A stretch of DNA of 64,000 nucleotides from Paraescarpia echinospica (taxonomy: Eukaryota > Annelida > Polychaeta > Sabellida > Siboglinidae): NCBI GenBank assembly GCA_020002185.1, contig CM034532.1, forward strand, positions 50,948,702 to 51,012,701, given 5' to 3'. The stretch's first letter is position 1, and every line of letters starts with the position of its first letter. The position numbers were made by a program, and so were the translations under genes. The notes below the pieces were generated by a model that saw nothing but the letters and a program-made list of their open reading frames with translations, had not been told where the DNA came from and made no database searches. Shown here one piece after another: positions 12,427 to 58,081 of this stretch.

Positions 12427-15103
12427 TATAATAGGAAATAGGATATCTGATACGTTAACAATGTTGTTAATATAGATTAAGAATAACAGTGGCCCTATTA
12501 TTGACCTCTGTGGTCCACCACAGCATATAGACTGAATGTTTGATTTTATTCCATAAAATAAAACATATTGCGTTCTATTAAATAAATAACTTTCCAGTCA
12601 GACAAGTGCTCTTCCTCTAATGCCGTAATGTTCTAGTTTATTAAGTAATATTTTTATGGTCAACTGTATCGAAAGCTTTACTGAAGTCAAGAAAAACTCC
12701 TAGTACGTAGTCACCATTATTTATAGCTGTGGAAATGTTATCTACTAGTTGCACAAGAGCCATGTTTGCAGAATGCTTCTTCCTAAATCCAAACTGGGAA
12801 TCATATAAGATGTTATGTTTGTTTATGAAAGATGTTAATCTGTTGTACACTATTTTTTCTAGAACTTTAGAGAAAACTGGCAAAATCGATATTGGACGGT
12901 AATTGTTTACGAGTGTCTTGTCACCGCCTTTGTATATTGGGATCACTTTTGTTCTTTTCATGTCGTCTGGAAAAATGCCTTTAGTTAACAATAAGTTAAT
13001 AACATGTGTTGAAGGAAGTAGGAAAGTATGATATGTTAATTTAACAATAAATGGAGCTATTAAGTCCCAACCCGGATTTGATATTTTTAGATCTTTGATT
13101 ATAGTTTCTACTTCATTCAGTTCAACTGGGGAGATAAATATTGTAAGGAAGTTTCGATGCTTAATATATATTGACGGGTCAATAACATTTTTGGTAGTCT
13201 TTTCAGCCAACGATGGCCCAACCTTAACATACTAGTTATTGAAGTAATTGGCAATTACTTTTTTATCGGTTATTAATTGATTATTAATAGTTATCTTCGG
13301 AGATTGGGGAGGTTTTTTAAGCTCAGAAGTAACAAGAGACCAGTCACCGTTTGTTAGACTTGTTGCAAACTTTGCTATGTTCTGATCAGTATAAGGCCTT
13401 TTAGTTATGTACTTTGTGTTTACATATAAGTTGAACAACTATTGTTATCGTCATGGAAGACAGGAAAATGATCTGATATATCTGTATATAGTATACCAGA
13501 ACAGGTTTCTGTGCTATTTATAGTTAGGTTATTAGTAGAAATGTTGTCAATAAGTGTGGCAGAAGTAGCAGTTACTCTATTTGGTTTGCTAATGAGAGAA
13601 ATATATGACATGGTATACATACATTCAAGAAATTCTGAGCTAGGTACATGTTTATCCACATTTAGCAGATTGATATTGAAATCACCCATGAGATAACGCA
13701 GGCAATTCTCTTTATGGATATTTTTAAAGATAGCATACAAGATTTAGGTGAATACATTTATATCTTTGTCTGGTGGCCTGTACACAACTCCTGTAATAAC
13801 GTTCCTTTTATATGTAAATATACCTTTGTCCAACTCAATGAACACACACTCTATATCTTCATTACTTTTGTCTAAATCTTTTCTTCGTTTGTAAAGAAGC
13901 GAATTTTTTATGCAGCCCGCCACGCCACCACCCTTATTATTGTTTCTGTAGTTATAATAGGAAATAGGATATCTGATACGTTAACAATGTTGTTAATATA
14001 GATTAAGAATAACAGTGGCCCTATTATTGACCTCTGTGGTCCACCACAGCATATAGACTGAATGTTTGATTTTATTCCATAAAATAAAACATATTGCGTT
14101 CTATTAAATAAAAAACTTTCCAGTCAGACAAGTGCTCTTCCTCTAATGCCGTAATGTTCTAGTTTATTAAGTAATATTTTTATGGTCAACTGTATCGAAA
14201 GCTTTACTGAAGTCAAGAAAAACTCCTAGTACGTAGTCACCATTATTTATAGCTGTGGAAATGTTATCTACTAGTTGCACAAGAGCCATGTTTGCAGAAT
14301 GCTTCTTCCTAAATCCAAACTGGGAATCATATAAGATGTTATGTTTGTTTATGAAAGATGTTAATCTGTTGTACACTATTTTTTCTAGAACTTTAGAGAA
14401 AACTGGCAAAATCGATATTAATTAATTGATTATTAATAGTTATCTTCGGAGATTGGGGAGGTTTTTTAAGCTCAGAAGTAACAAGAGACCAGTCACCGTT
14501 TGTTAGACTTGTTGCAAACTTTGCTATGTTCTGATCAGTATAAGGCCTTTTAGTTATGTACTTTGTGTTTACATATAAGTTGAACAACTATTGTTATCGT
14601 CATGGAAGACAGGAAAATGATCTGATATATCTGTATATAGTATACCAGAACAGGTTTCTGTGCTATTTATAGTTAGGTTATTAGTAGAAATGTTGTCAAT
14701 AAGTGTGGCAGAAGTAGCAGTTACTCTATTTGGTTTGCTAATGAGAGAAATATATGACATGGTATACATACATTCAAGAAATTCTGAGCTAGGTACATGT
14801 TTATCCACATTTAGCAGATTGATATTGAAATCACCCATGAGATAACGCAGGCAATTCTCTTTATGGATATTTTTAAAGATAGCATACAAGATTTAGGTGA
14901 ATACATTTATATCTTTGTCTGGTGGCCTGTACACAACTCCTGTAATAACGTTCCTTTTATATGTAAATATACCTTTGTCCAACTCAATGAACACACACTC
15001 TATATCTTCATTACTTTTGTCTAAATCTTTTCTTCGTTTGTAAAGAAGCGAATTTTTTATGCAGCCCGCCACGCCACCACCCTTATTATTGTTTCTGTAG
15101 TTA
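12427..15103. repeat. Tandem duplication inside the LINE, one copy deleted
   Basis: Segment 12427-13952 (~1526 bp) is repeated as 13953-15103 (~1151 bp). The two are almost identical by eye (one obvious base difference, AATAACTTTCC against AAAAACTTTCC), except that the second lacks ~375 bp equivalent to 12894-13271. The junction at 13950-13954 has a few bases of microhomology (TTAT). The result is two copies of the endonuclease C-terminus and of part of the RT. The near-identity implies a recent event or an assembly error. Confidence 0.85.
12430..13210 (-). pseudogene. LINE ORF2 reverse transcriptase (undeleted copy)
   Basis: Frame 13210-12641 contains ISNPGWDLI, VIPIYKGGD, NNYRPISILPVFSKVLEK, SQFGFRKKHS and DFSKAFDTVDH: reverse transcriptase blocks 1 to A, with the first catalytic Asp. 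After a frameshift near 12640 the reading continues through GPQRSIIGPLLFLIYI (block B) to FADDTNVF near 12420, so the catalytic Asp pair is still encoded. The break between blocks A and B makes the copy inactive as it stands. Confidence 0.85.
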
Positions 15104-15255
15104 TTTACCACATGGTAACCTGCAATGTTATCAGTATCAAGATTGCTTTCCTGAAGCCACGTTTCAGAGAATCCAATTATTGAAAAAGAGATTGGCAAAG
15201 TAATTGTCAAATTGTTGGTGGTGGCGAGGCAGACGTCTGATATTGACATGAACAA
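14569..15255 (-). pseudogene. LINE ORF2 endonuclease domain
   Basis: Minus frame 15255-14893 carries IIGFSETWLQESNLDTDNI, GGGVAGCIKNSL and ITGVVYRPPDKDINVF, the N-terminal blocks of an apurinic-type LINE endonuclease (the catalytic Glu is in SETWL). After a frameshift, 14889-14569 carries YLMGDFNINLL and YTDISDHFPVF, the C-terminal blocks with the catalytic Asp-Asn and the SDH motif. All expected catalytic signatures can be seen, but in two frames. The second half is repeated at 13740-13420. Confidence 0.85.
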
Positions 15256-15980
15256 CAGAGAATGTGGTATCTGTTACACCAAGTTATATGCATGATTTAC
15301 TAAAGGTATCTTCTATATGGTAATTACACTTATTCATGTTTTGAGTGAATTCACAATAGTAATTTGTATCAGGATAATAATTAAATAGGATAATTAAATA
15401 GGATGTCTGTATCTGATTCACTGTTAATTTCAAACGGTATGAAAGCTTTCTTTTCTAGTACTTGGAAAGAGAAGGAAATATTAACATGCATCCAACTTTC
15501 AGAAATGACATCTATAAATTCACTGTCATTGTCGAGATGATTGTATGGAAAAATATTTTATAAAATACCAATACTCACAGTAATCTCGAATATTTTGTTT
15601 GTTCAATACTGTGATACAATTAACATGATAATACCCTTTACAAGTAATGCATTAGTACAGTGGAGCAACTCTTTTCACATATTTGGCAAAAGCCTTTATC
15701 TCTAACCATTATCGATCGATGTAAACATAGTTCTTGCTGTGATTCGAAGAGTGCTAAAATAATTAGTGAGTAATACATAGTACGTAACTCGTAGGAATAA
15801 AGCAAGGTGGATTTCATTACTATCAACATACCTGTATGTTAATTTCACCCATTTGCATTATAGTAATACAATCATGATCTCTATTAGTAGTGTATGTGCT
15901 GCGTGATAGACAAATACATATACACGTTGTGTAAATAATGACAAATATCATGCCATTAATGGCATACAGCGAGTCCAAAG

Positions 15981-18480: not shown

Positions 18481-18594
18481 CTAGATTAGCAGGGGGGGCT
18501 CACATAGAAGCATGAAACTGGGGACATACATAAAGACAGCACAAATAAATCAGCAAAGAACAGTCTGGAAAACTGTTCTGAAGCTGGATATAAC

Positions 18595-20428
18595 TGTGTT
18601 TGTTTAAATGCAAGGAGTATAGTAAACAAAAGAAATGAACTACACATTATGGTAGAAGATATTGACCCTCACATAATAGGTATAACCGAATCATGGGTCA
18701 CCACCGATATAAGAGATGCCGAATTGGGACTGACAGGATATGTAATGTTTAGGAAAGATAGAATAGGAAGAAGGGGAGGTGGAGTTATTTTATATATTAA
18801 AGAATCTATCCAGGCTTATGAAATAAAATTAGAAAGAGAAGCAAATTGCGAAGAAGCTGTTTGGTGTAACATAGTTACAGGAAATTCAACGTTAACGGTT
18901 GGGTTAGTTTATCGAAGTCCAAACATTAGCTTAGAAGGGAATGAAAAATTACAAAATGCTATAAGGGAAGTGAACAAATGAGACTGTGTTTTTATGGGGG
19001 ATTTTAACCATGGGCATATACAATAGAAATGTTATCATCAATGTTAATCAGAAAGGAATGGCAAAAAGCAGTAAAGGAGAAATTTCCTCAAAGGAAGATA
19101 TAAGGACCTGGGGAAATATTTGGCAAAGATAGACTGGAATAATACACTGAAGAATAAGACAGCAACAGAATGCTGGAATATATGAAAGAGTGTAATTGAG
19201 TACGACGTCGATAAATTTGTTCCCTTGAAAAAACAAGGAAAACGGTCAAAAAGGAGACACTTATCGAAAGAAGCCATTAGAAAAATTAAGTACAAACAAA
19301 TGATGTGGAAGTCATATAGACATACTGGAAGTGATGAAGACTACAATATTTACAAAGAAGCACTAAACCAAGCTACAGTTGTAATTAGAAATTCAAAGAG
19401 AAGCTATAAACGAAAATTAGCTTGTAATATAAAACATGACAGCAAGAGTTTTTATGCGTATGTTCGAAGCAAACAGAAAGTTCGAGATAAGGTCGGTCCT
19501 CTAGAAGATAGTACTTGAAATATAATATCAGAGGGATTCTTAATGGCAGAAGACCTGAATGAGTTCAGTGTTTACCAGGGAAGATATTAGTTCACTGCCA
19601 GTACCAGAGGCTAAGTTCAAGGGGGCAGAATCAGACGATCTAGGACAGATAACTGTAACCCCAAAAACGGTAGCTAAAAAAATAAGGGCTATGACGGAAA
19701 ATAATTCACCTGGAGTGGATGGGATTCCGCCCAAACTACTTTGGAAATTGTAGAACAAATTAGCATGCCGTTTGCAACAGTTTTTAATTTGTCATTAGAA
19801 CAGGGAGTGGTTCCTTCAGAATGGAAAGAAGCAAACATAAAATGATACCATTATTTAAAAAAGGTTCGAGAAACAAGTCAGAGAACTATGGACCAGTGCG
19901 TTTAACATCGTGATTTACAAATTATTAGAAAGACTAATTAAAGATCACATGGTGGATTTTCTTGTTAAACCCATCTCAACATAGGTTTCTAAAAGAAAGG
20001 TCATGCTTAACAAATATGTTATGTTTTTTTTGAGGATATCATTAAGTGGGTAGATGAGGGGTCACCAGTATAGATATCTTCTACTTAGATTTTTAAAAAG
20101 CTTTCGACAAAGTGCACATCAAAATTTACTATTTAAACTAAAGACCCAAGGCATAGGAAATGGTATAATTAACTGGGTAGCAAAATGGCTGATTGACAGA
20201 AGACAACGGGTAGTTGTAGAATATACTATGGGGGTACTGCAATGCGTACTACTGTAAAAGAAAAGGACTTAGGGTTAACCACTAGTGCTGATATAGAGGT
20301 TTCAGAGCAGTGCCGAATTGAAGCTTCAAAGGGAAATCAAATCTTTGGATTAATTAGGCGAAATATAGCGTATAAGAAAAAATAACTAATAATACCGATG
20401 TACAAAACAATAGTTAGGCCTCATTTAG
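18595..20428 (+). pseudogene. CR1-like LINE ORF2: endonuclease and decayed RT
   Basis: From 18595: CVCLNARSIVNKRNELH, then IIGITESWVTTDIRDAELG, RRGGGVILYIKESI and LTVGLVYRSPN (endonuclease). After a stop at 18979 comes CVFMGDFNHGHI, with the catalytic Asp-Asn. The linker and N-terminal RT follow (ENNSPGVDGIPPKLLWKL near 19720; YKLLERL-like near 19920; FLKSFRQSAH block A remnant near 20100). The catalytic FADD region is absent: TDRRQRVVVEYTMG jumps from block A/B sequence straight to the post-palm EYTMG segment, a deletion relative to the copy at 129-1400. The hAT-like insertion at 20429 cuts it. Confidence 0.8.
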
Positions 20429-32939: not shown

Positions 32940-35900
32940 AACACTACGTCATGTACGAGATCATGGACTAAACATGGAATACTACACGGAAGAGGTAGGT
33001 TTTTAAAAGTCGCTTTAATGTGGTTAGCGCTGTGACTGTCTTTGATGCTAACGGAATAGTGTTCCACATCCGCGGGGCCGAAACTAAGAAAGAGCGGTCG
33101 CCGTATCTGCTGTTGGATGGCGGCACGCGCAGGTCGTTGTTGTTGGCAGAACGTAGCCCACGCGCTGGACGTCGAGCAAGTCGATGATGTACGACGGAGC
33201 AATGCCACGTTGTGCTGGGAACGAAAGTATTTTGTAAACGATACGCTGTTTCACCGGAAGCCAATGGAGCTTCTTTATCACCGAGGTTATGTGCTCTCGC
33301 CTGTTGCAGCGGACTACCAATCGAGCTGCTGAGTTCTGCTCTCTCTGCAGTTTAAAGATAAGAACATCTGGGATACCGAACAGCAAAGCATTCCCGTAGT
33401 CGAGTCTCGAAATCACCAGTGATTGTATTATTCGAGCCGCTGCTTTCTCCAATAGACATGCACGATCGTATGGCAGCAATATTACCCAGGTGGTAGTATG
33501 CGGTACCATCGACATTTCAACGTGGAACACAACGCAGATGTTGTTGGCACTCGGACTAGGAGTGATGTCACAGTCGCCGATCTTTATCATGGTGATGTTG
33601 TGTTTCTTCTTGTTGGTGCGTGATGCCAAGACGAGCGCGACTGTTTTGTCCTCATTGACTTTCAGTAGATTGGTGTTCATCCACGCGCGGACGTAGTAGT
33701 GCGCTCGTCTTGGCATCACGATTGTGATAGTTCAAGTTGTGTTGTTTGATGATACCGCCGATTGGGGACGTGTAGATGGTGAAAAGCAATGGCCCCCACT
33801 GCTGAGCCTTGGGGGACACCGAAAGCGATATTTGAATGGTCGGAAGCACCGTCTGGTATTATCATGGATTGTGTTCGATCGGTCAAGTATGAGCGGACCC
33901 ATTCTAGCGCGGAGCCAGTCACACCGATGCGTTTTTCTAGACGCGAGATCAGGATGTCGTGGTCGACGGTGTCGAATGCGGCAGACATATCAAGTAGTAC
34001 GAGTAGGACCCGTACCGCCGGTCTAATGCCTGAAGAATATGATTCTGTACAAGCACTAGAGCAGTTTCAGTTGAGTAGTACGGTCGATAGGCCGACTGGT
34101 TCCTAGTTGTTTCCAGTACTCGGCAACGTTCTATTAACTGACTAGTCTGTATATATTGTGGTTACAATGTTATGAGGTATCATTCAACTAGTCAGCCTTT
34201 TTCAGAACATTATCGCCAAGCCGACCTTTCTATGCTGGCACTGAGGGTGGTCATTGCCAGGGTGCTTGTCGTCCTCAGTGGTTCTTTTACGTCCCAACTG
34301 GAGACGGGACCGACATTAACGTGATCTCCGAGTCACGAGGGATACACAGTCCCCAATGTTGAGAGCCAGGTTTTTACACCAAATATACCATATCTGCCCG
34401 GGTATTGAATGTCAGGCGGATGTGCTAACCACTACACTATCGCGCGCCCCCTAGTCGGTCGAGTAGGTCGTTCGCAGTTGCGTGATCGAGTAGGCACCGT
34501 GCGACGTATCTCTCAAACAACGTGGAGACAAATGGGAGATTCGAGACGAGTCTATAATGTGTCAAGTTGTCAACATCTAGATTAGGTTTCTTTAATATAA
34601 GGGGGTGCATGACGTCAGCATGTTTAGGTAACGAAGGACGACAGCATGTATGGTGGATGCGTTAGTCAGTTGCGTCAAAATTGACGCCAATCCGTCCGAA
34701 ACGTCTTTAAGTAGCCATGTTAGTGGGTCGATCGAGCGCGCAAGATGCCGTTGGCGAATTGGTGATGAGACTGGGAATATCAGATATCGACTCTGTCGCG
34801 AACGTGTGTAATCGTGGTACACTGGATGTCTGGTGCTTCTCGACATCTAGGCTAGGTGTGGCGGCGGGGTAGTCACCTAGCGTCCCACGAATCGTCGACA
34901 TTTTCTGAGAAGAAAGTGACGAAACGTGTTGCGAGTTCTTGCGTGTTGTCGTTTTGTGGTAAGTGAGCGGATTTCCGTCGCTGCAGGAACCCGTTCATCA
35001 AGCGGTACAGTCGTCTTGAATTGCCACCGCAATGATCAAGTTCGAATGTAAAGTAGACCCACTTTGCGGTGTTGATTAGTTTCTTGACGTATGCGCATTG
35101 TGTCTTGTATATCTCGCGATGTACAGTAAGAGATGTGCATCGCCATTTTCGTTCGAGTTGTCGTCGTGTTCTCTTGACGTCGGCCAGCTTCTCGTTGTAC
35201 TAAGGCACCAGTGGGCGGACAGCTGCACGACATGACAGTAAGGGTGCGTGTTTCTGGACGAGGTCGGACAACACGGTGTTGTATACACTGAGAAGTTCAT
35301 CTGCATCGCTGGCAAAGGGCATTGCGACCGATGTCGACGCTGCAATGTCGTCGCGAAACGCCGGCTTGTTGATGCTCGAATATTTCCGATACATTATTTG
35401 TTTCCTATGAACACATGGCTTTAAGATGTCAATAACGCATTCGATCCAAAAACGGTCAGAGAAAAGCGACGAAGTGTTCGTGGAAACAATTCAGTGGTTC
35501 ACCGCCCGTATGAGGATCAGGTCGATAGTGTGGCCATCGGTGTGTGTAAGCTCACGAACATGTTGGATTATGTTAACGGCGACAATTACCTCGATGACAC
35601 TGCAGTCGGATGGTCTGTCCCAGTGTATATTGAAGTCTCGGATATTCGCGAAACGGCACGACATCATGGCATAATCTTCAACGAAGGATGCAAACTCGGC
35701 AAGAAAGTCGGCATGAGAGAGTTTGTTTTTGTTTGACCAAGGTGGGCGATATTTAATGATGAGCTTGGTGAAGCTAGCGGGCGACATGACATCAATGTCC
35801 ATAGATTCGAATAATTGCATCGGCTGTTTGTTGTTGTTGACGGTAACTTTAAAGATCGATCTGTATAAGAAGCCACCCTCTCGCCAGTTTTTTTCTGGGC

Positions 35901-36300
35901 GCATGCACGAAGTTGTAGCCGATCGGTGATACATCTTTCACTGATTTCATGGCCTTATCTCCCGGGCTGAGCCAGGTCTCGGTAACTGCCACGAGATCAA
36001 AGTTGGCGTCAATGACGTGGTCAATAAAAACGTATGTTTTATTGCGAATGGAACAGGCGTTGACGAGGCCCAATATAACGAGTGATCTGGCGTTGCGTCG
36101 AGCATTTCGCAGAGCCCCATTGACCGATGGAGTATTGTGTGGAGTGGGCGAGTCCCATTGTGCTATGCCTATGTGTCTTAAATTGTTGTCACAATGGCGT
36201 GTGCATGGCCGGCCGTGGTATGGTCGATGTCCAACCACAAGTTCAATAGATCGTTGTTTCCAAGCGCCGCCTCGGCAGCCGCGTCTCGTAGGCAACCGGG
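32940..36300 (-). mobile_element. Antisense L2/CR1-like LINE, ORF2 pseudogene
   Basis: Minus reading: endonuclease blocks at about 36295-35500 (NACSIRNKTYVFIDHVIDAN, DLVAVTETWLSPGD, LIIKYRPPWSN, then DFNIHWD), RT block 'QSAYRPYYSTETALV' near 34070, SAAFDTVDHDILISRLEKRI (block A, 33985) and FGVPQGSAVG (block B, 33830). Then follow VNEDKTVALVLASR and LDYGNALLFGIPDVLI, and the C-terminus FLVSAPRMWNTIPLASKT with LLKTYLFRVVF ending near 32970. The YADD segment is lost around 33700, where a short duplication (GCGCGACT/GTGCGCTCGTCTTGGCATCACG) is visible. Frames change many times. A SINE sits inside at 34148-34450. Confidence 0.85.
34148..34450 (-). mobile_element. tRNA-derived SINE inserted in the LINE
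   Basis: The 303-bp insert is flanked by the direct repeat CTAGTC (34142-34147 and 34451-34456), and the LINE reading continues on both sides. On minus its head reads GGGGCGCGCGATAGTGTAGT then GGTTAGCACATCCGCCTGAC, a tRNA A-box region (TAGTGTAGTGGTTAGCA); a degenerate B box (ATTCAATACCC) lies ~30 bp on. It differs in sequence from the SINE at 1785-2080. Confidence 0.75.
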
Positions 36301-36827
36301 CGGCAATGCCGTGATTGACTAGTGTCCTCTAAGCATTGGCGTTCACGCGTGAAGCACAGGAATGGCGAAGCAATTGACTGGCAGTGTACCTGATCATGCT
36401 GTGTTCTACTGCTGCTGTTGTGTCACGTGGTCATGCTTGGTCGGCACATTGTTCTAGCTGCAACGGTCACGGCTGACTGAATCAGTATATCCACGTAAGC
36501 ATTCCCCTGCGAAATAATGACCTCTTTTTGTCTCAGATAGAGCGCGAGCGATGTGTGCGTCATTACTTCGTTAATACTAAAGTTGCATTATCCCTAAAAC
36601 CCGTTGGCCTTTACGCCCTCCGACGACTAATTGTATAATTGTCGTTTCGGTTGTTATCCGCAGTTGGCGTTATTGTTTGTTTACGTTGGTACTGAAACAC
36701 GTGTTTACGTACGGTTTTGAAGTTCTAAACGTGCGATAAACGTGACGTAACGCGTTGTAGTTATTACTTAAGACAAAGACAAACGAGGTAAGATTCGCGT
36801 TTCTTCCTGAACACTTGACGTATTAAG
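36301..36827. promoter_or_regulatory. Upstream region of the TASOR-like gene
   Basis: Between the LINE end and the ATG at 36828 there is no other gene. The ~250 bp before the ATG are relatively CG-dinucleotide-rich (several ACGT/CGTGACG words). A donor-like GAG|GTAAGA at 36786 could mark a 5' UTR intron. No TATA box was identified. Promoter role inferred from position. Confidence 0.35.
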
Positions 36828-39800
36828 ATGACATCAGGAAGAGGTGGACTACCTAAAATACAAAAGAAGAGAAACGGTAAGCAGCCCAATTGCAATGGCC
36901 AATAATAGCAATATAATTATTATGCTAAATGCATTGTTCCTCAAATTCCCCAAAACGACGGCGACGGTGTTGTTTTCCTAATAAATTTGCCACAGTAACC
37001 GCTTATGAAAAATACAATAAAAATCCTGTTACGGAGATCCTTCGATCGTTTGCGATGACGACATACGTGATTATTTACCATGTCCACGCCGTGAACAGTC
37101 TGCTGTGAAATAATTGTCATTGTTTTACCTGATTTGAAGAAAACATAAGTGTTAACCGTCTTAGTGCCTAGTCCTGGGCAAGGCCCTTCGCCTAAACTAT
37201 TGCCGTTGGGAAGTTAGCATAGGCAAGAATCCAGCAAGCTTGGAAAGCAACACATTTGAATTAACTTGACAAGCTAAACAAATACATAAACGCAACATGA
37301 AGGTGTTGTGCAACGCAAACGGAATACACACGTAAAACGGTTAGCGCGATTGAGTTTTTAAATGTTAAGTTATAATATAAATAGGCGACCAAAGCGGCCT
37401 CAAAAATCCGATACAAATTCGATCGCAGCTATGTATTAACATAGCTCGTTTTGGAGTATAGCTTTCCAAGCAAGCTGGATCGTCGACTATTCTGCGGTCG
37501 TTTCCCTATGGCTGCAGTATGCCTACTTAATTACTGCCCTACTATTTTAGGATATCATAACAAGTTGGAATTAAGACATTAAAATAATATTATTTCTGCA
37601 TTAGTTGTAAACCATAAAAAACCCTTAAACCCAGCTGTAGCTGTTCCTCTTTTTTAAATGTGTCTACTGCTCATCAAAATGCATTTAATATGCCCGATAC
37701 ATTGCTCGCAGTTTGGATGTTGCGCCCACGAAACGTTCTAACTATACCCAAGACATAAACAAATCTACACAATTGTAGTCTCTTTTGGCAGTACAGCGTA
37801 GGCAGGCGGTGCTAACAGCAAATACTTTGATGTTCCACGCAATAAAAATTATTTATTCATTGAATTTCCTGCTAAAAATTACCACACCAGTCCCCACTCT
37901 GGCACTCCAGGGGTTCCACCGGTTTCGAATTCCCGTTTGACTACGGTCGGCCCTGTGTGCCTTAATTTCTCCAATCGCAGAGTTGAAAGTGCGGAAAACA
38001 TACTATTTCAACAGTGCCAAAGAATGTCACAAGTGGTTCCTGACTGTCAGACTGAACACTAGCCAAGTTCAACCTACGACTGCCACAGCTGAGGAGCATT
38101 AATAGTTCATGTTAAACAACGATGTTGTCCGCTTGGTGGGTAGTTTATCGTCGACTCGGCGCCCTCCAGACCTTGGACACTACGCCGTTGCCAACAAGGT
38201 TATTCTAGTGAACCACTGACATACTAGTCTTGATTGCGGTTGCTTGGTTGTGGTGTTGCGTGTATTCTGGATATCCACGTTTAGGACAATGCGTAGATGG
38301 TTTTTGGGTGTATGACGTTGCAAGGTGGTAGACTGACGGCTTCCGTCTCTCGTAGAATTGTTGGTCACGGCCAACGACCACGAGCGGCATGAACTGATTC
38401 AACTGGTCACTCGGTCCTACTTACCGGTGCACACCAGTGACATGTGGCACGTCGTCGATGTTCACCTCGTCCACAACGACTCGCTTGCCGAACAGTTCAG
38501 GTAACGACAGCCGGGCAGTGTGCTGTCGCGCGTGTGTGTATGTGCGTGTTTGTGTGTGTATTTTTGTGTGCATGTGCGTGTTTGTGTGTATATTTTTGTG
38601 TGCATGTTTATTTGTGTGTGTGTGCGTGCGTGTTTGTGCGTTTGTGTGCGTGTGCGCGTGCCTGTTTGTGTGCGTGTACGCGCGCGTGCGTGTGCGCATG
38701 CATTTTATGTGTATGTATGTGCGTGTTTGTGTGTGTGTGCGTGTGCGCTTGCATGTGTGTGTGTGTGCGTGCATGTTTGTATGTGTGCGTGTTTGTGTGT
38801 GTGCGTGTGCGCGTGCATGTTTGTGTGTGTGTATGTGCGTGCGTGTGTGCGTGCATGTGCGTGTGTGTGTGCACTTGAGCCTGTGCGTGTGTGAACACAC
38901 GTTCTATGATGCCGCCAAAAATGAGTTAAAAAGTCCGGAAGGTCGGCATCGCTATGGAGTGAATCAAAAACGGCACCAATTTGCCAAGTATGCATACCAG
39001 CAAATGTTGTAATGGTCATGTGTATAAATCGCACGATCATCTCTGCTTTCGGTGTGCAAGAAGAATCCCCATTCTGTGTTGTTAAATCATTGACCGCGGT
39101 GCTGATTTGGTGATTCCTACATTTTATTCAATCAAGTTAAGCCTAATGTGTTCTCACTGATCAATTATTGATGTTATGTGTCTATTTATTTTATTCATTT
39201 CGTATCATTTATCACAAGTAGAACCTAGGCCGTAGGCTTATAACTGTATAAAAGGGTTGCTAACCACTCAGGCATTCAGCCTATGCTTGCCGTGATGCTG
39301 ACTTTACGCCTGTAACTGCAGACAACGGAAGTGTGCAATACGACAAGAGATGGGACAGCGGACACGCCGAGGACCACGCGACCGGCTGGAGTGCTACACC
39401 TTCACCGTCCCCGTAGACTTGGACAAGGCGTGCCTAGATGGCGTGTCGGTTCAACCAACGGCCTACAATTTGCTTGGCAATAGTCTGATGGGCGTCTACC
39501 TCTTCCGTCATGCTGACCTCTGTTTAGAAGCCTCCCGTTTTAAAAGCACACGCCGTACCAAAGACCTAGATATAGTAACACTACTCGTATGTAAGGTAAG
39601 CGCTAGACGTCAGACAGTATTAAGTTCCGTTTCAAACTGACGCATAGGCTACGTGAAGGTTGGGAGCTATGAGCCACTTTTCACGTTGTCAAAGATAAAC
39701 CAAAATATAAAACAGTTTTTAATATTAACATTGCACTGCCACATAAATATGAAAAGAGCGTCGTGAAGTTTGTGAGGCTGGAATATGTCAGTTTCCAAAT

Positions 39801-42800
39801 ATATGCAAATCAGTGGACGCATATGCAGTGTCTCAACCACAGTCCAGACAAACTTAGGTTTGACTTGGAACAAATGGCAACATATTTTAGCACAGTAGTT
39901 TTCTATCAGGTATCCAGAACACCACACTAAAAGTCCTAAGTAATCCCATGCGTGTAGTTTTTTTTAAACAATATCTGGTACAATTGTACTTTTTTCAATT
40001 AATTTACTTTTACGTTTATATGTATATTCTAGGCCTATATGGCTGGTTCATTGAGTGTTTTCTACAATCGCCTAAACGTTGTCGTGGTCGCCAGTGACGA
40101 ACTAAATCGCGTTCTGTGTCGTTGTGAAGGTGGTGCTGGGAAAGGTGAAGACGGTTCCTCTCAATGATGGCGGACTACCACTCGAACCGACTCCCAACTG
40201 TCACAGTCACGTGCTTTACGAGGTAGCTCGACCGACAGATGTCGCCGCTGAAGCACAGCGTCGGTCGCAGGTCTGTGGCAATGTCCCGAAGGTTGGCGTC
40301 TCATCATAACCCTCATATTGCTGTTTTTATTACGACACCAAGCCGTCCATCGAGAACTGCCCATTGGTCGGAAGCTTGGGCTGTCGCAGGGTATTTATAA
40401 TGTGACGTTTGTTTTGTCTCATAGTGCCCAAGATGATTGGCCCCCTTCAAAACACTATAATGGCTTGATAGTAAACAAAATGAAGCTTTATAAGCAAATC
40501 ATTCTTTTTCAAAATTACAATATCGTAGACCAAGGGCGAACGTTCGTTTGGCTGACCAGTTGGTGTCTGTCCGCAGGTCTACATCTACGAGTACGACGAT
40601 CACGGCGATCCGTCACCACGACCGAGACAGTGTCTACCATACGCCACGATGTCGTTTCGGCGTTCCCCAGTTTTAAGTATGGCTATATGTCAAATGACGT
40701 ACGGCGAGCTACGGTCGTCATCGAGGAAGGTCATTTCTGTTAGAGCCACGGTCAAGAGCAACACATCTTCTTGCCAGAGCGACCGTAGGCGTAAGCAGTG
40801 TCCGGCAGCTGACGCTAAGACACGCACCTGCAAGCGACATGGTAGGTCGGCCTTTGCGAACGCCACCTCACCCGGAACTGAAACTCCCGTACAACCGGGC
40901 TCCTGCGCACACGACACCGACGAAACACAGCGCTCCGAAATACCACAATATTCTGAAGTAGCACAGCGCACCAGTGTACCGCATGACTTCGAAGTAACAC
41001 AGTGTTCCGGTATACCACAGGACTCCGAAGTAATACAGTGCTTTGGCATGCCACACGACTCTGACGTAACAGAGCGCTCCGGTATACCACATGACTCCGA
41101 CGTAACACAGCGCTCCGGTGTACCACATGATTCTGAAGTAACACAGCGTTCCGGTATACCACAGGACACGGAAGTAATACAGTGCTCCGGTATGCCACAT
41201 GACTCTGACATAATACAACGCACCAGTGACCAACATGACTCCGATGTAACACAGTGTTCCGACTTAACACATGACTCTGAAGTAATGCAGAGCTCCGATG
41301 TAGCACATGATTCCAAAGTAACACAGTGTTCCGACTTAACACATGACTCTGAAGTAACGCAGAGTTCCGATGTAGCACATGACTCCGAACTAACACAGCG
41401 GTCCGGTTTATCACATGACGCCGAAGTAATACAGCGGTCCGATATACAAAATGACTCCGACGTAAGACAACAATCTGACATACGACAGGACTCTGGTGCA
41501 TCCGAGCACGTGAGCATGCCAGATGACGTTATACAGCACTCGGGCACAACACGGGACTCCGACGTCGAGAAGCATTCCGGGGTAGCACAACGCTCCCACA
41601 AACAGCATGACTCCGGCGTAACACAGGGCTACGGCACGACACGATGCTCTGACGACGCACAACACACCGATGTACCAGAGTGCACAGAAGTGACACAATG
41701 TTCCAGCATATTGAGAGAGTCCTGCCTTCTAAAGAGCTCCAGCAACCTAAGTAATTCCGTCATTTCCAATGACACAGACGTGTCACAGGCTGTCAGTGTA
41801 CTAAACGACTGTATCACACCAAGAGTACATCAAGGTTCGGCAGTTACACGCGGTTCCAGCCTAACCAAAGATTCCGACGATCCACACGTCTCTGGGATAC
41901 AAGAAGGTTCCATAACACACCACCGCTCTGTTACAGCCCGTGAACCCAGCGTACAGCAGGCCTTTGACGTATCCCAACGCTCTGGTGTACCAGAGGGTTT
42001 TGTCGTTCCCCATGGCTCTACAACCATATCATGTAGCTGTGGCAGCCAGCAGGGACACAGTGCACCCAACATACGATATGACTCCAGCAAAAGCATACAA
42101 CAAGGCTGTGATGTAGCAAAAGTCCCCGGAGAATCACATATGCACGGCACTGAAGTTGGGCAGAATACTAGCGTCGCCGCGTTAACCGGATATTTGACAC
42201 AGCGACTAGTACTCAACGATGTCGACGAAACTAATATTACTATTATAGACAATAAACGAAGTATATCGCGTTGTCATAGAAAGAACGCCCGTGGACTGGC
42301 AACAGTAGATACTGCATTTTTTAAATCTGACCTACCGTTGCCAACGGCTGTCGAGAGAGTGGCGTCTGTTACGAGTGCGGATAATGCTGAATTCCCTCAC
42401 CGCAGCTTTCAACCAACGCAAGTAAGTAGACGGTCGACAGTTGTATATGGTCCCCCCGGTGCCGACGTGTCCCCAGCATCGTGCGGTACACCGGGACACG
42501 CACGAGGATGCCCGCTGACCGACTCGGCGCGCGTGTTCACGGTACGTATCCCTCAGCTGCAATCGTCTCCCGTCGATGGAGACGTGGCGATGGACACCAG
42601 ACCGGACCCCCTCGCGTGGATCACCAAGCACATCACACCCAGACCGTCCCTCGACCAACACTTCTCGAATATATGTACCGCACAACACTGCGACGCGAGG
42701 GAAAATTTTTCCATGTCTCCGTCACCAAATATAACAGAGATGGCAAGAGTGACGTCTCCTGTAAGGACGGAAGCATCTGGAATAATGAAGCACACAGGGA

Positions 42801-44119
42801 CTAATGCAGGGACAGGTGATCGTAATGGGCACATGTGTGTATCGTCATTACAAATGGCAACTATGCCACCAGCGGTCGCAGCGGCGTCACGATCCCGCAG
42901 TGTTGCGGTAGCATCTGGGACAACAGCGGCTTCGCCAGTTTATGCAAACACAGCCAAGACAGCATTTAAAGGACACAGTGTAAGCCAACTAACACGTGAA
43001 ACAAACGAAGTTGTATCTAGTAAGACAAGTCCAGTGACATTTGTGTTAAATACAACGACAGCAGCAGCAACCAATACAACGGCAGTGGCAACCAAAACGA
43101 CAGCAGTGGCAACCAAAATGACGGCAGTGGCAACCAAAATGACGGCCGTACCAACCAAAACGACAGCAGTGGCAACCAAAACGACGAACGTTGCAACCAA
43201 AACAACAGCTGTGGCAACCAAAACGACAGCTGTGGCAACCAAAACGTCGGCAGTGGCAACCAAAACTACAGCTGTGGCAACCAAAACGACGGCAGTGACA
43301 TCCAGCACTTTCGCAAGAAGTACAACACGTGCAACACGTACGACAAACACGGATGACTGCTATCTACACGACATGCTCTCTCCCTGCAGCGGCAACCAAA
43401 GCGATGGCAGTGACATAGTGACATATCCAGCTAACGAGCACTTATCCACCCAAGTGATGCGGGTTGACAGAAGCCTCCCACCTGATCATCCAGTCATCGA
43501 AGATCGCCCGCAGAAACCCGCCACTCAGTCAACCAGCAACATATCTAGCAGCTCAGTTATGTCGGCTTTGCCGGCGTCGACCGAGCTGCTGACGCCAGCA
43601 GGATTTCGTCAGCTTGACCGCAATGTTTGTCGGGCATACGCCAAGTACATCCGCGCGTACACCTCTTGGCTGCAACAGCCGGTGCACGGTGAACGCTTGG
43701 CCTTGCTACTCGCCACGCTCAGAGTCGAGATCGAATACTACGTTGCGCTGTACAAAGCCGCTGCCGACATTGACCAAGCTGCCGATGTTGACATCCCCGT
43801 GCCCCTATCACTCAGCACGTGGCAAACCAACGAGCTCTCCGCTATCGATGCACATTTGAGGGCACTGCGTTCGGCGCCCATCGAGTCAGTCCGCGCCGTC
43901 GCGCTAACGACGCGTCTGCAGTCGTGTAGAGCTGAAGTCAGTGCAACGACACTTGTACCGGAGCTGCCGGCTTCGTGTCCCGGCAACAACCTCTACTGTC
44001 TGCTGAAGCTGCTGCGAGATGGATGCCGGCGACCGACCAAAGCGTCCTACCTAAAGAAGAAGATAGCCGCGTTACTTAATCTGGACGATAAGACTGACGA
44101 AGTGTCACGTGATGCATAA
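36828..44119 (+). CDS. TASOR/TEX15-family protein with DUF3715 domain
   Basis: Proposed join: 36828-36876, 38356-38500, 39322-39595, 40130-40270, 40577-44119 (1383 residues). All introns are GT-AG and all phases agree (1, 2, 0, 0). Exon 1: MTSGRGGLPKIQKKRN. Residues ~17-230 are the DUF3715 (TASOR pseudo-PARP) domain: ELIQLVTRSYLPV, VHLVHNDSLAEQFRQRK, NLLGNSLMGVYLFRHADLCL, VVLGKVKTVPLND, LEPTPNCHSHVLYE, VYIYEYDD and RPRQCLPYATMSF. The last exon adds ~1150 residues: 12-residue repeats (~318-581), Ser/Thr-rich linker, 7-residue repeats (~1031-1111) and a helical C-terminal domain (~1198-1383). Vertebrate TASOR scaffolds the HUSH silencing complex; TEX15 acts in germline transposon silencing. No SPOC or TEX15 repeat was recognised, so the subfamily is open. 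The upstream start is chosen because its donor joins in phase. Confidence 0.85.
36877..38355 (+). other. Intron 1 of the TASOR-like gene
   Basis: Starts GTAAGC and ends CTTCCGTCTCTCGTAG. It contains a possible alternative exon after CCAATCGCAG (37980): entered in the same phase it reads ELKVRKTYYFNSAKECHKWF and then LTVRLNTSQVQ before a stop at 38100. No good in-phase donor follows, so it would be a terminal alternative exon or chance. Otherwise nothing is seen. Confidence 0.6.
38521..38895. repeat. 375-bp TG-rich microsatellite in intron 2
   Basis: Degenerate (TGTGTGCG)n / (TGTGTGTT)n tract starting 20 bp after the exon 2 donor and filling nearly half of intron 2. It makes long artefactual open frames on both strands. 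Such tracts can affect splicing or form Z-DNA, but nothing here proves it. Confidence 0.9.
39660..39935. repeat. Dispersed repeat in intron 3, copy 2
   Basis: Shares GTTTGACTTGGAACAA and CCAGAACACCACACTAAAAG with the repeat at 31540-31690, in the same order and orientation, but lacks its hairpin. It lies within the intron between 39595 and 40130. Confidence 0.55.
40920..41710 (+). repeat. 36-bp/12-residue tandem repeat in the TASOR-like ORF
   Basis: About 16 regular units (to ~41500), then degenerate ones, of a 36-bp unit encoding TQRSGIPHDSDV with variants (TQCSDLTHDSEV, IQCSGMPHDSDI). The phase is kept throughout. Polar, with Asp-Ser-Asp/Glu acidic sites that resemble CK2 targets; probably disordered. 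The opposite strand is also open across most of it (41601-40690). Confidence 0.9.
43060..43300 (+). repeat. 21-bp/7-residue tandem repeat in the TASOR-like ORF
   Basis: Ten to eleven units of a 21-bp repeat encoding TTAVATK with small variants (MTAVATK, TTNVATK, TSAVATK). No frame-breaking unit. A Thr/Ala/Val/Lys-rich, likely disordered linker just before the C-terminal domain. Confidence 0.9.
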
Positions 44120-44469
44120 CTATGGATATGTGGGCCGATTTCGTATATGGTGGACTTTCGGTGTAATTTGGCTCAATGGTGTGACGTCTTGTGGCTGAAG
44201 AGACGACACGCTTGCCGAGAACAACACGTGAATCACTTCAAGCGTCCGTGCATTTAATACTTACTCTCATCTGTTTTACTACTTGTAATGTCATATTTCA
44301 TTAACTTTCCATTCGCTTGCAAGACTGCAACATATTCAACAGCCCCACCCCCTCTTCCGATGCCATGATCAGACACCGAGCGATGTCCTGCTGCTGAAGC
44401 TCCGGCTCAGCCCACCCAATATTCATTTTGTTTTGGCGCCAGTGGAGGTTTTGGCAAGCTTCAAGGGTG
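44120..44469. other. Downstream of the TASOR-like gene
   Basis: No AATAAA is visible in the first 350 bp after the stop, so the 3' end of the transcript is not located. No other feature is seen. Confidence 0.4.
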
Positions 44470-46125
44470 CCAGCTTAGTACATTACCGAGGTAACTTCGT
44501 TAAAATTTAGCTGACCAACACGGTAGACTTGTACAACTGTCTTACTTTAACACGTGGGTGTCGTAAATTCGTGCCAGTGCAGTGCATTACCGAGGTAACT
44601 TATTAGAATTTACCTGACCAACACGGTAGACTTGTACAAGTGTCTTACTTTAACACGTGGGTGTCGTAAATTCGTGCCAGTGCAGTGCATTACCGAGGTA
44701 ACTTCGTTAGAATTTACCTGACCAACACGGTAGACTTGTACAACTGTCTTACTTTAACACGTGGGTGTCGTAAATTCGTGCCAGTGCAGTGCATTACCGA
44801 GGTAACTTATTAGAATTTTAGCGTATGAACGCGTGAACGTCGTACATTCTTGCCTGCTTAGTACATTGCCGAGTAATTTTTCCGTTATGTTCATGTCGTA
44901 ACTTAGAATATTCTTCTAAGTCGAAGAATATTTTTCAAAGTCGAAACTTAGAATATTTTTTTTTAAAGTTGATACTTACTTTTTTCAAAGTCAGAACTTT
45001 CAAAGTTGAAGAATATTTTTCAAAGACGAAGAATATTTTTCAATGTTGGTACTTAGAATATTTTTTCAAAGTTGAAACTCACAATATTGTTTTCAAAGTT
45101 GAGACTTAGAATATTGTTCCGTTATATTCAAGTCGTAACGTAGAATATTTTTCAAAGTCGGAACTTAGTTATTTTTCCATAATGTTCAAGTCGGGACTTA
45201 AAATATTGTTCTGTCGTGTTCAAGTTGGTACTTAGAACATTTGTCAAACTCAGGACTTAGAATATTTTCCCTTTATGTTCAAGACGTAACTTAGAATATT
45301 TTTTCTAAGTTGATACTTGGAATATTTTTCAAAGTTGAAGAATATTTTTCAAGTTGGGACTTAGAATAGTTTTCAAAGTCAGGACTTAGTAATTTTTTGT
45401 TATGTTCAAGTCGTAAATTAGACAATATTTTTCGTCGGAACTTAGACATTTTTACGAAGTTAACTCAGTAATGTACTAAGCTGGCAAGAATTTACAACGT
45501 TCATATGCTAAAATTCTAAGAAGTTTCCTCGGCAATGCAATACACTGGCACGAATTTACGACACATATTCGTTAAAGTAAGAAAGTTGTACAAGTCTACC
45601 GTATTGGTCAGCTAAATTCTAACGAAGTTACCTCGGTAATGTATTAAGCTGGCAAGAATTTACGACGTTCACGCGTTCATATGCTAAAATTCTAAGAAGT
45701 TACCTCGATAATGCACTACACTGGCACGAATTTACGACAACCACGCATTAAAGTAAGAAAGTTGTACAAGTCTTCCGCGTTGGTCAGCTAAATTTTAACG
45801 AAGTTATCTCGGTAGTGTAATAATAATAATAATGTATTTATTTCAGACAATCATCGTGTCCATATATAAAAATACATCAATAAAAGTATGTAAATAAATA
45901 AAAATACATCAATAAGAACAATGTTTAAAAATTGTACAAATCCCGGACGCACTGGTGCCGCAGATTCGAAGTACAATGCACGTCGCTAGTTTTAATGCTA
46001 TAATGTATTAGGCTGGCAGGAATTTACGACGTTCACGCGTTCATACGCTAAAATTCTAAGAAGTTACCTCGATAATGCACTACACTGGCACGAATTTACG
46101 ACACATACACGTTCAGGTAAGAAAG
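44470..46125. mobile_element. Foldback-type element with repetitive long inverted arms
   Basis: The left arm (44470-44880) consists of a 104-bp unit repeated three times (CATTACCGAGG at 44481, 44585, 44688, 44792) and a distal part with GCGTATGAACGCGTGAACGT. The right arm (45450-46125) carries the same units inverted: CAAGAATTTACGACGTTCAC, TACCTCGATAATGCACTACA, AGAAAGTTGTACAAGTCT and others. The centre (44880-45440) is a different array of ~30-60-bp units (CTTAGAATATTTTTCAAAGT). Arms of internal tandem repeats around a central region are the structure of foldback (FB-like) transposons. The right arm is interrupted at 45815-46005. No transposase. Confidence 0.75.
45815..46005. mobile_element. 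Insertion in the foldback right arm, LINE/SINE-tail-like
   Basis: Begins with TAATAATAATAATG, continues AT-rich with two partial repeats of AAATACATCAATAA, then unique sequence to about 46005, where the arm sequence (GTATTAGGCTGGCAGGAATT) returns. The (TAA)n start suggests the 3' tail of a minus-strand retroelement. Family unknown. Confidence 0.5.
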
Positions 46126-46234
46126 TGTCGTTGTGATACGAATAACGATGCGACTGGCAGAGCACCGCACTTATATAGGAATATGAAGGTCACGTGAGCG
46201 TGCCGAAAGGTCAAGTGGCCGTGCCAAATAAACA

Positions 46235-49979: not shown

Positions 49980-52080
49980 AAGACAGGTCAACATTATGCA
50001 GTGGAATGCAGAGGGAATGTATAACGAAAAGGTTCCCCTTGCAGAGGAACTCCACCAGGAACAAATCGAAATTGTCTGTCTAAAGGAAACACATCTGAAG
50101 GAGACCCAGCGCTTCAACACGAGAGGATTCCATGTGTGCATACTCGACAGAAACGGTAGAATCAAGGCGGAGTGGCTATTCTTGTCAATAATTCCACCCC
50201 AGCTCAATAATTCCTCGTCAACACAAATGATGAAGCAGAAATCCATGGTGTCTGCCTCACAGTAGACGCGCAAGAGCTGAAGATCTATCTACAACATATA
50301 CTGCCCGTCAGACAGATATTTATGCCTGGACCAGATTGAACTCCCAGATAGTCTATGCCTCATCATTGGCGACTTCAATAGTCATTCAGAAACCTAGGGA
50401 TACTTAGATGCTGACAGGAGAGGAGAAGAAGTTAAAGACTGGCAAGCTGAAAACAACATTCACCTTGTAAATGACCATGAAGACCCATCAACGTTCTTCT
50501 CAAGCAGATGGCTGACAACAACGACACCTGACCTGGCCTTTGCTACTGGTGACATGTTAAAAAAGATCATCAGAACGGTATAAAATCAGCTTGGAGGGAG
50601 CGACCACAGACCAGTGAAGATCTCTCTGGACATTAACTTCAAACTGCAGGACGCCAATACATTTACACGATGGAACTACAAGAAGGCTAACTGGAAGAAA
50701 TTTGCCATGCTGACTGATCAGTACACAGGATAAATTCACAAAAAACAACAGAACCTGAATGTGAAAGTGAAGGCTCTAAAGCAAACTATACTCAAAGCTG
50801 CCAAAAATATATCCCTCGATGTGCCAGAAAGAACTACAGACCTTACGGGACTGAGGAGCTTCAAGAGCTCGACGATCGCGTCACTGAAGCCAGAGCACAA
50901 GTTGAAGAATACCCCACAGTGGATAACAACATTACACTCAAGGAAGGTACAGCAAGGCACAGGAGAACCTTCGTTCAAGAAGCACGAAGAAGTTTGAAAG
51001 AAAAGAAAAAACAAAGCATCTCAACTTGGACAAAGATTGCAACAAATTGTGGAAACTGACACACGCCATGAATGACGAAAACAGAAAACGCCGTTGAAGA
51101 CAACCAGGTGGAATTCACAATGAACACGTCCTTCAACAAGAAAGATCTTGAGGAAGCAATGTCAAAACTAAAACTTAAGAAGTCCCCAGGACCAGACGAG
51201 ATCACAAATGAGATGTTGCTTCATCTCGGTCCAAAATCAAAGAAGAAGCTCCTTCAACTGTGCAATGACAGTTGGAGAACAGGAGTCGTACCACAAGTAT
51301 GGAGAGAATCCATCATGATCCCTGTATACAAGAATGGAAAGGACAAGTTGAAAGCTGAGAGCTACCGACCTATCAGTGTTACCAGTTGCGTTGGAAAGCT
51401 GATGGAACGTCTCATCAACACCAGCTTAATGTGGCACCTAGAAGAAAAACAGCACATCAGTCCTGAGCAAGCAGCCTTTAGAGATAATCGGTCCACTGAG
51501 AATCAAGCCACCTACATCTCCCAAGCAATAGAAGATGCCTTCCAAGAAAAGAAACACACTCTTGCAGAACTGCCAAAGTTTGTACGGGGAGTCATCTACG
51601 CAGATGTCCCTGTCCTATGGAGCAATGAAGAATACATCTCAATAGCAAACTACTGACTTCAACTAGCACTCAAAGAGATAGAGGCATGGACCAAAACCTG
51701 GCTTGTGAAGATCAACGAAAATAAAACAGCGTACACTCTCTTCACACTTTCGCCCCAAGAACAGAAGGTCACGTTACTGATCAACTCACAGAAACTACAG
51801 GCTGAGGATACAACAACCTACTTTGGAATCACACTTGACCGTAGACTGACCCAGAAAAGTCAGTTGAACAAGTCCCAAGCAAGAGCAAAGATACGGCTGT
51901 CCCTCATGAGTAAACTTTCTGGCACAAATTGGGGCGCATACCAAAGTGTACTGAAGAAACTATATGTGGGAAGAGTCCATCCATTCTTGGAATATGGCAT
52001 GACAGCTAGTTTTACAGCTGCCAAATCAAACACTGACAAGATTGCCAGAATCCAGAATCAGGTCATGAGAATGGCGCGCG
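49980..52080 (+). mobile_element. Jockey/RTE-like LINE ORF2, inactive
   Basis: Endonuclease: MQWNAEGMYNEKVPLAEELH, IEIVCLKETHLKETQRF, then near 50370 IIGDFNSHSE and near 50590 GGSDHRPVKISL. RT (51072-51656): LKLKKSPGPDEITNEML, IMIPVYKNGKDKLKAESYRP, EQAAFRDNRSTENQ. The expected block A (D...AFD) is missing: EKKHTLA runs directly into ELPKFVRGVIYADVPVLWS. The catalytic Y-A-D-D is YADV. The C-terminal part is 51705-52080 (TTYFGITLDRRLTQ, LYVGRVHPFLEYGM). Internal deletion plus a lost catalytic Asp make it inactive. No 3' tail: it stops at the edge of the satellite near 52100. Confidence 0.85.
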
Positions 52081-52139
52081 AGGATGCCTTCCTTGTCGTG
52101 CACTCGTAAACAGCGACGCCGTCTCGCAGCGACAGAGTT

Positions 52140-56209: not shown

Positions 56210-57660
56210 CATCATCATCATCATCATCATCCTTTTGGCGGCCACAATCAACTTGCTGATTATTCTGCCGCTCTTTGGGGGTTGCGAGGAGGTAGAATTT
56301 GATTTTGTTAAGAGAAGAATATCTAGAGTGACAGACCTATGGAGAACATTCGATCGCTATAAAAGTTTTAAATTAATAATAAAATAAACCCAAATAAAAC
56401 AAATTAAAAACAAACAACAACAACAAACAAACGCAAGTGAAATCAAATGTAAAACAATTAAATAAATAATGAAATGAAAATTTAAATCCATACCCCTATA
56501 CCTAGTCTAACCATGTAATGTCTATTTTTGTGGCACCCTTGCTTTGAAAGTGTCAAGGGTGCTGGCAGCTACAGCTGTTTCAGGCAGATCGTTCCAGTCT
56601 TTGATGGTATTGGGGAGGAAAGAATGTTGTCTGTACTTGGTTCTGCACTGGATCTGGCAGAGCTGCTGTGAGTGCCCTCTTCTTTGTCTGATCGGAGCAG
56701 GATGGAGTTTGGAGCGATCGACTACAGCTTGGTTCTTAATGATTTTATGTAACATGGTCAATCTTGCCACCTTTCTGCGGTACTGGAGGGAAGGCCATTT
56801 GAGTATGTTGATCATTGTGGTGACGCTAGATGTCTTCTGGTACTGGTTGACCACAAACCGAGCGGCTCTTCTCTGGACTGCCTCGATCTTGTCAATGTTG
56901 CGCTGTGTGTAAGGGTCCCAGACTGAGCAGGCATACTCCAGTATGGGACGAACGAAGGTCTTGTATGCTGTCTCCTTCAGCTTGGTGGCGCTGATCTTGA
57001 TGTTGCGACGTAAGAAACCTAGGGTCTTGTTGGCTTTAGCACAGATGTTGTCAATGTGCTGGTCCCAGCTGAGGTCTCGGGTGATGGTAACTCCGAGGTA
57101 CTTGGCAGAGGTGATCGTTGCCAATGTACGGCCATGGAGTACGTATTGGCACTCCACTATGGTCCTCTTGCGGGTGACAGGGAGAGTCATACATTTCCAT
57201 GGGTGGAAAGCCATGTCCCATCGTTGTTCCCAGTTTTCCAGTCGGTGGAGGTCGAGTTGTAGCTGGTGTTGGTCAGTGGAGGAGAGGCGATAGACAGCGG
57301 TGTCATCAGCAAATAGGCGTGTCCGCGAAGTGAGTTGTTCTGGGAGGTCATTGATGTAGGCCAGGAATAGTGCTGGGTCGACAACTGACCCCTGTGGTAC
57401 ACCTGAGCGCACACTGACGTAGCCTGAGGTAGCATCGTTAACCACTACTGCTTGCCGCCGATTCCTGAGGAAAGCCCCGAGCCACTGGTTGACTTTGCCT
57501 TGGACTCCATAGTGGTGTAGCTTATGTAGTAGGAGACTATGGTTAACCCGGTCGAAGGCTTTCGCAAAGTCCATTATTATGATGTCGGCTTGGTGGCCTT
57601 GTTCCAAGTTCTCGCCGAGTTCTTCAGTGAAGTCCAGTAGTTGTGTTTTATTCGAAAACA
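56210..57660 (-). mobile_element. 5'-truncated LINE with intact RT core
   Basis: One open frame (57691-56522) covers reverse transcriptase block A (IIIMDFAKAFDRVNHSLLLH), block B (RSGVPQGSVVDPALFLAYIN), the catalytic LFADDTAVYRL, TSAKYLGVTITRDLSWDQHI, LEYACSVWDPYTQRNI and the C-terminal NTIKDWNDLPETAVAASTL. The 3' UTR runs to a (GAT)n tail at 56210-56231. The endonuclease and first RT blocks are missing: LINE sequence stops near 57660. A jockey/CR1-superfamily element. Compared with the other LINEs here, it has the fewest lesions, so it is probably the youngest. Confidence 0.85.
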
Positions 57661-58081
57661 ATAACAACAGACACGTACTTTGGTGTATCAAGACGAAGAT
57701 TCCAAAGTGGTTGTACGAAGGTACGTATTACACTATCGCATTTAGCAACAAGAATGCGTAGCCGTGTATTAATTCAACGAGAATTGCAACTTGCGAACGT
57801 CTACACTCGACTCGACGCTGACTTAGTCTAACTTAGATTCGTTAGCAGGATTCGTTGAAGTGCCTACTCTAAGTCTAAGCCTAAGCCAGTCACCAGGTCC
57901 ATGACGATATCAGCCAGAGATTCAGTCAGAGGCTGTGACAACGAGTATAATATTTGATATGCATTGTATTTGGTTACGTAGGATCTTGTTAATAAGCTAT
58001 GTTATTGCGACAATACATATAGAGAATAGATGACGTGAGGGTGCGAAATGACAAGTAACATTGGTTTGGCACCTATTGGTT
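57661..58081. other. No gene recognised
   Basis: Sequence between two LINE fragments; nothing supportable. Confidence 0.45.

Follow-up and report, generated by a model that had tools for sequence, protein, structure and literature searches.

A DUF3715 gene with a repeat-bearing tail, encoding a putative pseudo-PARP adaptor of transposon silencing

The window analysed here, a stretch of 64,000 nucleotides (contig CM034532.1 of assembly GCA_020002185.1, positions 50,948,702 to 51,012,701, forward strand), contains at 36828..44119 a five-exon gene with an amino-terminal DUF3715 domain and a long, repeat-bearing tail. Judged by sequence, it belongs to a set of three DUF3715 genes that we found in the genome, and a different member of the set is nearest to TASOR. 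It adds a modest new branch to a known family and is not wholly new. We consider it probable that the product is a fast-evolving DUF3715 pseudo-PARP adaptor for RNA-directed transposon silencing, a function read from the domain itself. The pseudo-PARP head would engage a silencing step common to TASOR and TEX15, the low-complexity, repeat-bearing tail would serve as a disordered, flexible linker, and the C-terminal helices would form a predicted partner-binding site; the adaptor would recruit the silencing machinery to transposon transcripts. DUF3715 is a link between HUSH and nuclear piRNA, the two pathways by which vertebrates silence transposons in an RNA-directed manner. Besides its TASOR-like gene, the genome has two DUF3715 genes in which no partner domain was recognised, and this set provides material on the role of DUF3715 before the present TASOR and TEX15.

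Results

Gene structure

Joining the five exons at the coordinates of an earlier, sequence-only reading of this DNA gives a single open frame that codes for 1,383 residues and ends in a stop. The four introns are all GT-AG, with phases 1, 2, 0 and 0, bearing out the splicing and phases that the reading had claimed. In the list, HMM positions and bit scores refer to an HMM derived from vertebrate TEX15 sequences.

36828..36876, + strand: exon 1, 49 nt; start codon and residues 1-16 (MTSGRGGLPKIQKKR...)
36877..38355, + strand: intron 1, 1479 nt, GT..AG, phase 1
38356..38500, + strand: exon 2, residues 17-65; start of DUF3715; HMM positions 7-47, 11.5 bits
38501..39321, + strand: intron 2, 821 nt, GT..AG, phase 2; holds a (GT)n-rich stretch at 38532-38871
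39322..39595, + strand: exon 3, residues 65-156; DUF3715 core; HMM positions 49-137, 39.3 bits
39596..40129, + strand: intron 3, 534 nt, phase 0, K|VLFGK
40130..40270, + strand: exon 4, residues 157-203; DUF3715; HMM positions 126-179, 22.8 bits
40271..40576, + strand: intron 4, 306 nt, phase 0, SQ|VYIYEY
40577..44119, + strand: exon 5, coding for residues 204-1383 and the stop; DUF3715 ends near residue 231 and the tail follows; HMM positions 179-205, 23.8 bits

Exon 1 is the weak spot of the model: it is only 49 nt long, lies beyond the reach of the TEX15-derived HMM and has an in-frame stop four codons 5' of its ATG. Its LPKI was aligned with the IPKI of TEX15 amino-termini, a match that is suggestive only. 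The donor of intron 4, GTCTGT, is also weak, and use of an in-frame GT 21 nt further 3' would insert seven residues. The conserved position of this intron (see below) supports the donor chosen in the sequence-only reading. The same 9 bases, CGCAGGTCT, occur at both of its junctions (40266-40274 and 40572-40580), making the exact splice point ambiguous without any change to the product.

Vertebrate genomes show strong CpG depletion; exon 5 has an observed/expected CpG ratio of 1.1 and the window as a whole 0.96. The sequence points to an animal other than a vertebrate and to a genuine protein-coding gene. The label 'invertebrate' in the earlier reading is kept as probable, on the strength of these ratios and of a whole-genome search in which no TEX15 domain was found and the controls were equally silent.

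The DUF3715 domain

The joined amino-terminus (residues 1-258) is matched by the Pfam DUF3715 family (PF12509) with an E-value of 7.7e-19 and 68.6 bits (curated cut-off, 28.5 bits); this was the profile check that the sequence-only reading had called for. Human TASOR (6tl1) matches residues 21-231 (E 7.6e-16, 61.4 bits). A TEX15 DUF3715 profile, made from 52 non-redundant vertebrate sequences out of 82 extracted from 120 listed proteins, scores 120 bits against the protein over residues 43-229. When 3,659 stop-to-stop open reading frames, taken on both strands from the window and two other DUF3715 loci, were scanned with the TEX15-derived HMM, exons 2 to 5 were matched collinearly on one strand, and the next match in the window reached 7.4 bits. 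The blocks of the domain are in order, as originally described.

Frog TEX15 was the single match of the first protein search (E 1.5e-17, 772 candidates scored). This search admitted proteins of about 760-2,420 residues, a range exceeded by 101 of the 120 TEX15 proteins later listed, so its paucity of matches says little. All protein searches with the window protein, of which the second query contained a piece of the frog protein P0001, returned nothing but frog TEX15 (P0001 and its near-copy P0002) and one other relative, P0121.

P0121 is an open reading frame of 131 residues on a 1.58-Mb ENA contig, which came from a profile-based protein search (7,996 candidates scored). It shares exon 3 with the window gene, with 68 of 92 residues identical (74%) and no gaps, but is known from this one exon only. 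Past both exon 3 edges its flanks, compared by eye, are unlike the unspliced sequence of the window, as expected if the relative keeps both exon 3 splice sites. The high identity of exon 3 makes it seem that the domain is still under constraint. Pattern scans with exon 3 of viral and prokaryotic contigs gave 5 and 146 pattern matches, respectively, none of which was confirmed as a relative.

In the tree alignment, read by eye against the motif table of PMC7955679, the columns of the PARP triad H-Y-E are occupied by T-Y-Q in the window domain. The His-Tyr-Glu triad, whose loss defines a pseudo-PARP, is thus absent by this reading, and a catalytically dead PARP fold is to be expected for the DUF3715 part. 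The DUF3715 domain of TASOR is itself described as a dead PARP in PMC7532188.

The repeat-bearing tail

As the sequence-only reading had it, the rest of the protein lies in one intronless exon with two tandem arrays. Exon 5 codes for 1,180 residues and contains:

40924..41469, + strand: array of 12-residue repeats, 36 bp, 15.2 copies; coding, about residues 320-501
43054..43304, + strand: array of 7-residue repeats, mostly TTAVATK, 21 bp, 12.0 copies; coding
43553..44116, + strand: C-terminal region, residues 1196-1383; helices modelled with unusable confidence; matches no recognised family

The unit lengths of both arrays are divisible by three. When adjacent copies in the 21-bp array (11 units) are compared, differences amount to 8.6%, 7.1% and 35.7% at codon positions 1, 2 and 3, a clear pattern of a frame kept as protein. 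For the 36-bp array (15 units) the corresponding values are 29.8%, 11.9% and 34.5%, a weaker protein-level signature.

The 36-bp array starts around residue 320, some 90 residues past DUF3715, at the site expected for SPOC-DomI. Pfam searches of exon 5 with E-values up to 10 gave three families, all far under their cut-offs and none of them SPOC or TEX15; the SPOC scan was made without a TASOR SPOC-DomI profile as positive control. No SPOC or other TASOR or TEX15 partner domain was recognised in the tail; for SPOC and other TASOR parts this agrees with the original description. The TEX15 domain (PF15326) was found nowhere in the genome at E-values up to 0.001, with equally silent controls, and a search with the last 185 residues (1199-1383) at E-values up to 1 returned nothing else from the genome. 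A relative of the C-terminus in the PDB was considered and rejected, the best sequence match (E 1.5, to a transporter) being a chance one. Structure prediction of the C-terminus, proposed in the sequence-only reading, was run with AlphaFold on residues 1196-1383 and yielded helices, but with a mean pLDDT of 41.5 the model is unusable.

By eye, this low-confidence model might show two long helices, a loop and two more helices, like the stretch that follows PF15326 in TEX15. The resemblance, first seen in this way, was supported neither by HMMER nor by hhalign nor by profile alignment. A homemade TEX15 C-terminal profile gave a best HMMER score of -3.9 bits in the window protein, located in the repeats. 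With hhalign, the C-terminus scored 14.1 against TEX15, and 60 shuffles had a mean of 15.1 and a maximum of 23.0. In profile alignment, 3 of 100 full and 4 of 100 local shuffles did as well as the C-terminus against TEX15 repeat 1, and 90 of 100 and 84 of 100 did so against repeat 2. The power of this method is low: its positive control, in which the two TEX15 repeats were aligned with each other, was weak, scoring 41.3 where shuffles averaged 28.1 and peaked at 51.7. With BLASTP, the C-terminus and frog TEX15 shared chance matches only. It is improbable that the protein belongs to a TEX15 lineage outside vertebrates and that its C-terminal helices are a TEX15 repeat too diverged to be recognised; if true, the TEX15-type nuclear silencing arm would be older than vertebrates, contrary to the published vertebrate-specific view.

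Other DUF3715 genes of the genome

A DUF3715 search of the whole assembly (1,083,790,144 bases) pointed to three places: exon 3 of the window gene (31.5 bits), C6:70834542-70834787 and C2:17046611-17046760. The exons of the latter two genes were read from about 50 kb around each.

The C2 gene (C2:17.03-17.05 Mb) is 44% identical to human TASOR (176.5 bits), compared with 29% and 59.0 bits for the window gene, and together with human TASOR it splits off from the rest of the tree with support 99/98. We take it, from these sequence comparisons, as the TASOR orthologue. The window gene, less close to TASOR than the C2 gene, is thus not its one-to-one orthologue; closeness was assessed from the DUF3715 domain only, and the comparison included a single human TASOR sequence and no TASOR2.

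The C6 gene (C6:70.83 Mb, L001/L004) shares features of its layout with the window gene. Its introns K|xxxGK and SQ|VY are at identical position and phase, the remainder of its frame is in the last exon, and it scores 84.4 bits to the window domain. On the other hand, that last exon is shorter, at about 460 codons, and carries another tail, ending KKPKYC; intron 2 is in phase 1 instead of 2, and identity is 32%. In the tree of 15 rows the two genes are joined weakly (76/49), as two long branches.

Intron 4 (SQ|VYIYEY, phase 0) is common to the window, C6 and C2 genes. Intron 3 (phase 0) is at the same place in the C6 gene, while that of the TASOR-like C2 gene is 9 nt downstream. Intron 2, placed by eye, lies at nearly the same spot in all three genes, to within a few bases, but its phases differ (window 2, C6 1, C2 0), so the match is inexact.

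For human TEX15, a splice-region variant is named c.700-6T>C in PMC10206016, from which it follows that an exon begins at c.700. This position was located through the chimpanzee protein P0068 (3,172 residues; human 3,176). No single offset between chimpanzee and human numbering fits at least five of six residues named in that source: four later sites fit an offset of 7 only, and two amino-terminal sites fit 4, and also -251 and -301. With an offset of 4, the sole small one, the codon preceding VYFYEY ends at c.699, and intron 4 probably coincides with the human TEX15 intron at c.699/700. A search for splice variants of human TEX15 where intron 3 lies found none.

Discussion

Relation to TASOR and TEX15

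TEX15, a vertebrate protein with DUF3715 and one or two PF15326 domains, shares with the window protein the amino-terminal DUF3715, a long, poorly conserved middle and probably the position of intron 4. It differs in its PF15326, for which exon 5 gave no match, and in its C-terminus, to which that of the window protein is no more similar in hhalign than shuffled sequences are. With TASOR and TASOR-like proteins (DUF3715-SPOC-DomI; HUSH complex), the window protein has in common a DUF3715 domain in which the PARP triad is lost and, with the TASOR-like gene of the genome, the intron 4 position; it differs in that a repeat array begins where SPOC-DomI would be expected.

PMC10578480 places the origin of DUF3715 in early eukaryotes, calls TEX15 vertebrate-specific and reports that the DUF3715 of TEX15 can substitute for that of TASOR in transposon silencing, which makes the role of the domain portable. 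According to a figure legend of the same source, its DUF3715 tree marks SPOC-DomI carriers; sequences without SPOC-DomI are probably already included in it. The undescribed architecture put forward in the sequence-only reading is thus plausible without being established. Among the DUF3715 papers listed, titles and abstract openings gave no account of the window gene. Of the assignment to a TASOR/TEX15 family, membership through DUF3715 stands; another gene of the genome is closer to TASOR than the window gene, and the tree favours neither the TASOR nor the TEX15 side for it.

Silencing adaptor or other role

Transposon silencing by the window gene is suggested by analogy, from its domain, and several points weigh against it. 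The domain evolves fast, with an end branch of 1.91, and its identity to the other 14 full domains in the alignment is 28.6-33.3%, which leaves room for a change of function. SPOC and DomI, which according to PMC7532188 are required together with DUF3715 for repression by TASOR, were not seen here, and the C-terminal model is unusable. Some of these features would fit a diverged duplicate that keeps DUF3715 for a lineage-specific role other than transposon control, for instance a germline or immune pseudo-PARP function: the branch is long, the tail is repeat-rich with neither a SPOC nor a TEX15 domain recognised, and its C-terminus has no other match in the genome. However, TASOR and TEX15, the members of known role, both act in silencing, and the 74% identity of exon 3 to its relative speaks for a domain still constrained. 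We regard such a duplicate as unlikely, slightly more so than an invertebrate member of the TEX15 lineage, in which the protein would be a nuclear silencing adaptor and its C-terminal helices a diverged TEX15 repeat.

For the TEX15 lineage, which we rate as a minor possibility, speak the single match of the first protein search and the helix layout of the C-terminus, which by eye may recall the stretch after PF15326. Moreover, all 82 vertebrate TEX15 DUF3715 sequences score the window domain higher (78.5-99.4 bits, mean 90.0) than do human TASOR (59.0 bits) and the TASOR-like C2 gene (72.6 bits); the value for the C6 gene is 84.4. But TEX15 sequences also score the TASOR-like gene highly, with a mean of 100.3 bits, and the preference may arise from TEX15 domains being less diverged and scoring all relatives well. 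Percent identities do not separate the two sides, since the values overlap: 28.6-33.3% to 11 TEX15 sequences, 29.4% to TASOR and 31.3% to the TASOR-like gene. Forcing the window gene to group with TASOR or with TEX15 gave p-AU values of 0.31 and 0.35, respectively, so that neither topology is rejected. The genome search for PF15326, silent like its controls, the hhalign score under the shuffle mean and the profile alignments, whose scores shuffles reached seldom for repeat 1 and mostly for repeat 2, likewise tell against this lineage. The lean to TEX15 is therefore a preference in scores, with no relationship shown. A pseudogene in decay, or frames that were joined by chance, could account for the weak intron 4 donor, but either is highly improbable given 1,383 codons free of stops, collinear domain exons, a cross-species match restricted to exon 3 and differences in the 21-bp array biased to third codon positions. 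A silencing adaptor is thus the reading we prefer.

Surroundings of the gene

About 350 bp 3' of the stop codon, at 44467-46126, is a large imperfect fold-back element with tandem 104-bp units (44477-44818) and inverted counterparts; its arms are up to 186 nt long and 90% complementary. Remnants resembling non-LTR retrotransposons are present at 33084-36328 (- strand), 11640-15273 (- strand), 18508-18981 (+ strand), 51072-52109 (+ strand) and 56522-57727 (- strand). The first of these, judged by eye only, is head to head with the DUF3715 gene, 500 bp upstream of it. Ten open reading frames of the window were scanned, three of which match RVT_1 and one Exo_endo_phos, the latter below its cut-off. 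The window has no Rfam and no tRNA match, and a cytochrome oxidase I search of the assembly, positive in 8 of 14 control genomes, gave none either. At 7334-7531 there is a 12-bp minisatellite, CAGAAGAGGACG, of 16.5 copies; its unit is a multiple of three and it is possibly coding.

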